Source: an uncultured Altererythrobacter sp. (lineage in GTDB: Bacteria; Pseudomonadota; Alphaproteobacteria; Sphingomonadales; Sphingomonadaceae). From it: DNA of 64,000 nucleotides. This document shows positions 22,237-22,847 of this stretch, piece after piece (the first letter of the stretch is position 1; the number at the start of each line of letters is the position of its first letter). A model generated the notes under the pieces. That model had not been told where the DNA came from, did not search any database, and worked only from the letters and a program-made list of their open reading frames with translations. The position numbers were made by a program, and so were the translations under genes. The DNA lies in the NCBI GenBank assembly GCA_913056125.1, contig CAJXNC010000013.1, forward strand, positions 1 through 64,000. Direction: 5' to 3'.

Positions 22237-22411
22237 ATTCGCAAAACCGTCACGAAACCGGGCTTTTGCACGAGTTGCCCATTCTGACTGTGAAAAAGAT
22301 TTTTTCAAGTCTTGTGTTGCGGCGCACAGCGATTCAAAACAGCACGCAAGGCCAGCGGTGAACGCGGTCTTCGCCCCCGGTGATACGGTGAGGGTGTTGG
22401 CTTCAAAGCGC

Positions 22412-22426
22412 GAAAGGAGGTGATCC
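22412..22426 (+). promoter_or_regulatory. 15-nt Shine-Dalgarno complementary to the 16S rRNA 3' end
   Basis: GAAAGGAGGTGATCC is fully complementary to the usual 3' end of bacterial 16S rRNA (GGATCACCTCCTTTC), far more than the 4-6 nt used by other genes here. It ends one nucleotide before ATG 22428, which leaves GGAGG 7 nt from the start. Confidence 0.8.
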
Positions 22427-22427
22427 G

Positions 22428-22484
22428 ATGTCTCATGGTTCAGCAGGGAGGTCGGTAAGTTTCCGCGCGAGGTACTATCGGTAA
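22428..22484 (+). CDS. 18-codon ORF behind an extended Shine-Dalgarno
   Basis: ATG 22428 to TAA 22484 encodes MSHGSAGRSVSFRARYYR, a basic, aromatic-ended peptide with no known family that I can name. The position right behind a near-ideal ribosome site, the clean stop and the following hairpins and terminator make it a credible translated leader or small protein. The stop codon lies in the left arm/loop of an 8-bp hairpin (CTATCGGT 22475-22482 with ACCGATAG 22493-22500), so translating ribosomes would melt that stem. Confidence 0.5.
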   Translation: MSHGSAGRSVSFRARYYR

Positions 22485-22536
22485 AGCTAGCGACCGATAG
22501 AGACTTCGTGGGCGGCACTTCTGGCCGCTGACCATG

Positions 22537-22577
22537 AAAAGGGCGGTTCCTCGTTATGCGAGGGCCGCCCTTCTCAT
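22537..22577 (+). terminator. strong rho-independent terminator
   Basis: Arms AAGGGCGG (22539-22546) and CCGCCCTT (22565-22572), with an inner CCTCG/CGAGG stem and a TTATG loop, followed by a T-rich CTCATTT. It ends the 18-codon ORF unit. Confidence 0.8.
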
Positions 22578-22616
22578 TTGGGGAAACTGCGCTAGCTTCC
22601 GCCTGTGGGTTCTTCG

Positions 22617-22847
22617 ATGCAATTCTTGCGCTTTGCGCCGGTAGCTACTTTGGCCGCCCTTGCGACTGCACTCTGGGCTGCAGACCCCTGGCCGACTTTC
22701 GCCATGCTCAGCCTGTTGGTTTTGGTTCCGCTATCGGTGGTGGTTTCCAACACGCAACGCAGCTGCGGACATGGCAGTCTCCTACCCCTCTTCGGCTGGC
22801 CATGGGCCGTCTCCGCATGCCCGAAATGCGGCGCGAAGGAATGGTGA
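22617..22847 (+). CDS. small membrane protein with C-terminal CPxCG
   Basis: 76 residues from ATG 22617 (a GTG at 22605 is possible). Two hydrophobic helices (A-P-V-A-T-L-A-A-L-A-T-A-L-W-A and F-A-M-L-S-L-L-V-L-V-P-L-S-V-V-V), then S-N-T-Q-R-S-C-G-H-G and a final A-C-P-K-C-G-A-K-E-W. The two cysteine pairs could hold zinc. No strong ribosome site. I recognise no family; it could be a real small gene or chance. Confidence 0.45.
   Translation: MQFLRFAPVATLAALATALWAADPWPTFAMLSLLVLVPLSVVVSNTQRSCGHGSLLPLFGWPWAVSACPKCGAKEW

Follow-up and report, generated by a model that had tools for sequence, protein, structure and literature searches.

Extended Shine-Dalgarno RNAs described in other bacteria

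The rreB and rreR small mRNAs, ascribed to Hahn et al. 2017 (RNA Biol 14:1353), are said to carry a 17-nt Shine-Dalgarno sequence. rreB reportedly encodes 14 aa behind this 17-nt site and a GTG start, co-sediments with 30S subunits and is stabilised when its start codon is changed to a stop codon; rreR reportedly encodes 18 aa and belongs to the Rhodobacter lineage. The orders named in that work are said to be the Caulobacterales, Rhizobiales, Rhodobacterales and Rhodospirillales, and not the Sphingomonadales. For the Caulobacter sRNA CC2171 (RF01867), Rfam 15 added one covarying pair (PMC11701678), and a table in a study of Mesorhizobium huakuii tags the predicted intergenic sRNA MH_s33 with the same family (PMC5596092). 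In the Bacteroidota, rpsU (bS21) is autoregulated through an extended Shine-Dalgarno sequence, which lets the mRNA sense 30S subunit status (PMC9976891). RNAs of the CC2171/rreB/rreR kind are already known in other alphaproteobacteria and little studied; our literature search returned no paper on such an RNA in sphingomonads and no assigned role for an RNA of this kind.

A unit of this kind was found in the window, the 64,000-nt stretch of an uncultured Altererythrobacter sp. contig that was analysed here. Sequence comparison gives good support for assigning it to the extended Shine-Dalgarno small mRNAs or regulatory RNAs, as a relative of the CC2171/rreB kind, with a score below the Rfam cut-off and a complementarity that is borderline against the 16 nt or more said to mark rreB and rreR. 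The earlier note on this DNA, which had named no described system with such a layout, was mistaken on this point, as RF01867 and the work ascribed to Hahn et al. 2017 indicate. In our preferred reading, to which we give a probability of roughly 60%, the locus encodes a free-standing, ribosome-engaging small mRNA or regulatory RNA, the Sphingomonadales-family form of the CC2171/rreB/rreR kind, with the peptide as a by-product. Counted from its ribosome site as far as the terminator hairpin, the RNA would measure ~160 nt, and perhaps ~230 nt with a leader. The features of the locus are collected in Table 1.

Table 1. Features of the locus, with positions in the window.
Feature	Position	Strand	Evidence
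Conserved block GTGAAAAA-N8-CAAGTCTTG (A-tract and CAAGnCTTG), probable upstream/-35 region	22290..22314	+	
GATTCA, GANTC site 16 nt past CTTG, probable -10 region	22331..22336	+	CTTG...GANTC count
P0, leader hairpin AAGGCC-A-GCG...CGC-GGTCTT, perhaps transcribed	22348..22371	+	96.7% of cells paired; 2/8 pairs double-changed
15-nt Shine-Dalgarno, GAAAGGAGGTGATCC	22412..22426	+	16S complement, duplex energy, invariance in genus
18-codon ORF, MSHGSAGRSVSFRARYYR, stop TAA (22482-22484)	22428..22484	+	Frame 0 spans 15-21 codons (67 type A loci)
P1, 5' arm CATGGT(T)CAGC(AGGGA)GGTCGG, codons 3-10	22434..22455	+	Genus pairing 100% and 98.0% of cells, nearly invariant
P2, hairpin spanning the final codons and the stop	22469..22507	+	7/16 pairs double-changed; 97.1% of cells paired
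P4, local hairpin, mutually exclusive with P1 3' arm	22512..22528	+	97.5% of cells paired; one pair UA16/CG13
P1, 3' arm CTGGCCGCTGACCATG, just 5' of terminator hairpin	22521..22536	+	Pairing tests
P3, terminator-like hairpin, then interrupted U tract	22538..22572	+	9/14 pairs double-changed

A 15-nt complement of the 16S rRNA 3' end

The 15-mer is an exact extended Shine-Dalgarno sequence, complementary throughout its length to the 3' end of 16S rRNA in genomes of the same genus (...GGATCACCTCCTTTCTAAGGAT, read from four of them, loci L002, L009, L021 and L026). A pattern search for the 16S end of the window's own genome gave no match, and the complement was therefore taken from these same-genus genomes. 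The pairing comprises 15 Watson-Crick pairs and one possible G-U, and the predicted duplex with the 16S tail has an energy of -28.0 kcal/mol, compared with -8.7 kcal/mol for GGAGG. One base separates the 15-mer from the ATG (22428-22430), GGAGG lies 7 nt from the ATG, and the 15-mer was without variation in 34 sequences of the genus. The anti-16S Shine-Dalgarno described in the earlier note, one base before an ATG, is therefore present and exact when checked on the four 16S ends.

By arithmetic, the exact 15-mer is expected ~0.006 times per 3.0 Mb on two strands; since the unit was also found in 37/37 same-genus genomes searched (own included, one match each), it represents more than chance. 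Elsewhere in the window, a single match to the 15-mer was obtained at up to three mismatches, and it had three. In the window's own genome AGGAGGTGATCC had three exact matches, of which the two besides this locus appear, by eye, to be internal to coding regions and not at starts. The earlier note's remark that the unit is shared by nothing else is right for the own genome and wrong for the relatives. An origin by chance or as an artefact, for example an antisense 16S fragment, can practically be dismissed: a 14-mer of the site does match antisense 16S ends, as did the five second 14-mer matches that were inspected (four in the genus and one in another family), none of which was an extra copy of the unit, but the sequence after GATCC is GATG here and AGCCGC in 16S, by which the antisense fragment was rejected, and the conservation among relatives refutes chance.

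A separate case was observed in another family of the order, where AAGGAGGTGATCC, a 13-nt 16S complement at a gene start, lies seven bases before an ATG (MRQTPKQRR..., locus L095, G049:C1:904760).

Distribution of the unit and its types

A DNA search in 24 genomes from other families of the order gave one match, weak and covering the terminator part only. The sequence AAAGGAGGTGATCNNRTGTC, allowing one mismatch, was present in 180 of the 296 genomes of the order, and its reversed control in one genome; by hand-counted totals, these were 180 of the 213 genomes of the window's family and 0 of the 83 from other families. An extended site ahead of a start codon, GAAAGGAGGTGATCNNRTG with at most one mismatch, was detected in 103/385 genomes of the class, mostly as one match each and with some matches corresponding to ordinary genes with strong sites; no control match was among those listed for the 385 genomes. 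From the order matches, 30 were examined as loci, together with 20 further ones chosen by hand. The window's putative RNA is, by these counts, a family-specific subtype (type A) of the alphaproteobacterial extended Shine-Dalgarno RNAs.

In ten or more genomes of the family, type A is accompanied by another copy that is Caulobacter-like (type B, MSHC...). In loci L154-L162 and L116, this Caulobacter-like copy showed the MSHC... start, a GACAATG-like stem and a Shine-Dalgarno often reading AAAGGAGGTGGTC.

The short ORF: a conserved frame

Frame 0 measured 15-26 codons in 106/106 sequences from three sets: type A (67 loci) spanned 15-21 codons (sd 0.7), type B (13 loci) 17-24 (sd 2.4) and the remaining class loci (26) 20-26 (sd 1.7). 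When frames +1 and +2 were read from these starts, the lengths scattered, with sd from 11 to 83 (one such set reads 255, inflated by a stop-less run entered as the placeholder 999). All 106 sequences had ATG or GTG at the expected position, a presence that is not independent for types A and B, the searches for which partly used a pattern with the start codon. The 106 sequences exclude seven duplicate genus loci (L128 and L130-L135), the duplicates L086, L075 and L084, L061 (site not located) and three identical sequences; the type A loci are not independent of one another, because about half (34 of the 67, plus L129) belong to the window's own genus. In 19 further pattern matches, counted without ten loci included before and L191 (site not located), the ORF lengths were 3, 21-26 (11 matches), 34-39 (four matches), 56, 58 and 99 codons, and the outliers were, by eye, an rplX-like gene, a probable chance match and a secreted-looking pair. 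L179 and L182, both from one other family, carry secreted-looking MSHGA... ORFs of 56-58 aa behind the same kind of extended Shine-Dalgarno, and these may represent a real protein gene that uses this site.

The locus could be a small-protein gene, with the 18-aa Arg-rich peptide as its product and the strong site securing its synthesis. Such a reading accounts for the frame and stop kept in all 106 sequences, for the N-terminus MSHGS/MSHC common to many of them, and for the peptides of Bradyrhizobium and Rhodobacteraceae, which look conserved among the matches listed; in the genus, omega under the F3X4 model was 0.91 for the 18 codons and 0.45 for codons 8-18. Under F1X4, however, the values were 1.11 and 0.78, and column permutations were as low or lower in 54/100 and 28/100 cases, respectively. 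The second codon position was the most variable one in codons 8-18 of the genus, the YY/HI swaps at codons 16-17 coincided with double-changed P2 pairs, and the first codons sit in an RNA stem. We consider the small-protein reading unlikely; it had been one of the proposals of the earlier note and found no support in the genus, where omega was 1.1 over the 18 codons. Weak selection on the peptide in codons 8-18 may nevertheless exist, given the omega of 0.45 under one frequency model. Between L137 and L138, of one genus, a 1-nt deletion shifts the frame and the neighbouring nucleotides are kept.

Within the genus, the window's type appears to keep the frame and its length, and does not demonstrably keep the peptide sequence, a statement that applies to this type and not to Bradyrhizobium or Rhodobacteraceae. 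In the window's family the peptide is probably a by-product. The earlier note had proposed to count equally frequent synonymous and non-synonymous changes, together with stems that are not maintained, against the unit; the two kinds of change were indistinguishable in the genus, but the stems were maintained and the ORF was kept.

RNA structure and a possible mechanism

The fold of 22400-22580 had a z-score of -5.6, and 0/200 shuffles were as good. In a 34-sequence alignment of the genus, 97.6% of the stem cells paired, and sliding the partners lowered pairing to 31-45%; 18 pairs were changed on both sides, with 127 double-changed cells compared with 33.9 in shuffles (0/500). Three elements of the earlier note were recovered: the 8-bp hairpin (22475-22482 / 22493-22500), with the first base of the TAA stop in its stem and the rest in its loop; the second small stem (22512-22516 / 22524-22528); and the strong terminator, of which the hairpin (~22538-22572) is present but the U tract is interrupted (CTTCTCATTT), so that it is better called terminator-like. 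The long-range stem P1, which joins codons 3-10 to 22521-22536 and recurs class-wide, had been overlooked.

P1 is nearly invariant in type A and, therefore, no covariation is possible there. Own and swapped pairing did not differ in type A (-14.3 both) and gave a weak contrast in type B (-12.5 vs -11.7), L117 being too short for this comparison. In 26 sequences of other families the own pairing totalled -393.3, compared with -284.9 (sd 15.6) when permuted, and 0/20000 permutations were as good; the result was likewise 0/20000 for 19 less similar sequences. For P4, 13 double-changed cells were counted in the genus vs 3.8 in shuffles, all of them in one pair, and this count of one pair was not above the shuffles (250/500 had as many or more); its specificity was weak, with 78% pairing when the partners were slid by +3.

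For the core from 22412, the fold with P1 was the minimum (-81.0 kcal/mol), and the forced-P4 fold reached -77.9 kcal/mol, a gap of 3.1; in the free fold of 22400-22580 the minimum and the centroid lacked P1, a P4-like hairpin was present and the Shine-Dalgarno was partly paired. The prevailing state thus depends on the flanks, and both folds are compatible with a predicted two-state RNA. Holding a 30S-sized stretch open would cost 15-16 kcal/mol, less than the predicted 16S duplex yields.

That the P4 loop contains an internal anti-Shine-Dalgarno (CACUUCC vs GGAGGUG) was considered and is not claimed: the window has CACUUCU, and 30/200 shuffles were as good. CACUUCC was exact in 28/67 type A loci, yet in 8/34 genus sequences among them; 22/67 type A loci fell at or below 5% of shuffles, and in a wider test of the genus a median of 0.73 of dinucleotide shuffles was as good.

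The sequence CGCTGACCATG of the P1 3' arm was invariant in 47 aligned type A sequences. This, and the filing of CC2171 as an sRNA by Rfam, would suit a trans-acting base-pairing sRNA with a conserved single strand directed at other mRNAs, the Shine-Dalgarno-like stretch being incidental or pairing elsewhere. Such an sRNA would leave the conserved frame length unexplained, and the 15-mer is an exact 16S complement; we regard it as quite improbable.

Under the preferred reading of a ribosome-engaging RNA, the extended site would capture 30S subunits. Codons 3-6 would be covered, and P1 thereby opened, either by a 30S subunit at the start codon or by a ribosome translating the initial codons; the freed 3' arm would form the local hairpin P4, and the ribosome would then halt inside P2, before the terminator. 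The structure, stability and/or availability of the RNA could in this way report or buffer free 30S subunits, and it is probably the act of translation that matters and not its product. We infer this mechanism (30S capture, P1 opening driven by translation, by-product peptide) from the kept frame, the stems and the reported rreB experiments. The ribosome-engaging RNA with a translation-opened hairpin that the earlier note had suggested would agree with the preservation of both ORF length and stems.

Upstream region

Upstream of the unit, a promoter-like block also overlooked in the earlier note was strongly conserved in a 37-genome alignment of the genus. As a genome-wide motif it was rejected, its exact copy in the own genome being found at this locus only; at up to three mismatches there were six matches, compared with seven for the reversed control. 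The upstream regions of six 16S genes from the same genus look, by eye, different from this block. Upstream of the site, 62/67 type A loci carried CTTG-N8..26-GANTC, compared with a mean of 2.1 and a maximum of 6 in mononucleotide shuffles; the N of GANTC was T in 35, C in 18, A in 8 and G in 1. The same arrangement occurred in 0/13 type B loci, the Caulobacter-like paralogs, and in 1/26 class loci. The stretch scanned was 150 nt for type A and 125 nt for types B and C. A transcription start near 22343 would perhaps place P0 in the RNA.

GANTC is the CcrM methylation motif, and the site may act in the promoter of this locus. A further proposal, which we hold tentatively and as rather unlikely, is that a two-state RNA (P1 closed or P4 formed) meters free 30S subunits through its over-long Shine-Dalgarno, needs merely to be translated into a peptide whose sequence is not fixed, and in this family is timed by methylation at the conserved GANTC of its promoter. 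If true, such an RNA would tie ribosome supply to the cell cycle.

Genomic context

The locus is flanked on one side by a tlyA-like gene (S4 and FtsJ domains) and on the other by an ilvE-like gene (aminotransferase class IV), names that we assigned from Pfam domains in a run on six neighbours, for context only. Among the 55 type A loci with at least 1 kb of downstream sequence, 44 have the ilvE-like gene there in the same orientation, which might suggest that the unit is a translation-sensing leader, or attenuator, of ilvE. The distance to the ilvE match, however, varied from 211 to 1399 nt, 11/55 type A loci and all 25 class relatives with enough flank lacked the gene, the window's peptide lacks Leu and Ile and has a single Val codon, out of keeping with an amino-acid attenuator, as is a linkage that is not fixed, and the RNA has its own terminator-like hairpin. 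The earlier note's ribosome-sensing leader, taken as the leader of a downstream gene, is accordingly very unlikely. A tlyA-like gene was near in 46/54 type A loci and in 0/26 class loci; the linkage to both genes looks like an inherited position, and not like a leader relation. Between the RNA and the ilvE-like gene, an 80-codon ORF (22605-22847) had weak matches in four other loci of 67 and gave no Pfam family.

Comparison with known RNAs

In a cmscan search, 22404-22571 aligned with RF01867 over the whole model (1-159 of 159), scoring 45.8 bits (E 7.2e-9), short of the 75-bit gathering cut-off. Across 289 class genomes, 61 matched at E<=1e-3 and nine reached the cut-off, in a search with stricter filters by which weak matches were lost; 30 of the 68 class matches listed were taken as loci. 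The unit resembles CC2171 in its full-length alignment, the 5' element GAAAGGAGGUGAUCC..UGUCUCAU, the long-range stem and the terminator hairpin. It differs in having AUG where the consensus has GUG, in P1 sequence and in the upstream region, and the shown text of the Rfam entry, which files the family as an sRNA, is without a coding role.

A scan for the 17-nt site followed by GTG gave at least 119 stretches; among the 80 matches listed, the ORF had 14-26 codons in 76, and 11, 12, 33 and 57 codons in the others. Behind this site, among the matches listed, the product was 14 aa in 8/8 Bradyrhizobium/Bradyrhizobiaceae loci and 18 aa in 13/13 Rhodobacteraceae, in agreement with the sizes reported for rreB and rreR. 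When 15 of the 17-nt loci were scanned with RF01867, the cut-off was reached in four (Methylobacterium, Bosea, Brevundimonas and Microvirga) and not in five from Bradyrhizobium, four from Rhodobacteraceae, one from Phenylobacterium and one from Sphingomonadales; the curated cut-off therefore takes in only part of an apparently broader kind.

Two possible pairings were observed in these sets. In L230, L251 and similar Rhizobiales loci, the mid-ORF TWI(V/L)AS codons CTGGATC..CGCCTC resemble the 16S 3' end CTGGATCACCTCC and could pair with the extended Shine-Dalgarno of the same RNA, with weak support from shuffles (6/38 at <=5%). In the 18-aa set (in L204-L283, mostly Rhodobacteraceae), a CNCCTCCT-like stretch ~100 nt past the start could sequester the Shine-Dalgarno (9/28 at <=5% of shuffles).

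With rreB (Bradyrhizobium) and rreR (Rhodobacter lineage) the unit shares an extended Shine-Dalgarno at a very short ORF, here of 18 codons and followed by a terminator-like hairpin; its site has 15 nt vs the reported 17, borderline against the complementarity of at least 16 nt said to mark these RNAs, and its peptide is unlike theirs. The frame and stems are kept and the peptide is apparently free in the genus, which makes it testable whether ribosome supply is sensed by an RNA that has to be translated although its product is irrelevant. The rpsU (bS21) mRNA differs in encoding a ribosomal protein, in a group where most mRNAs besides it are described as lacking a Shine-Dalgarno (PMC9976891), whereas the unit has an ORF for an 18-aa peptide with no detected conservation. 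The likeness to rpsU lies in the exceptionally strong 16S pairing of one mRNA, typically one per genome in the Flavobacteriales (PMC9976891).
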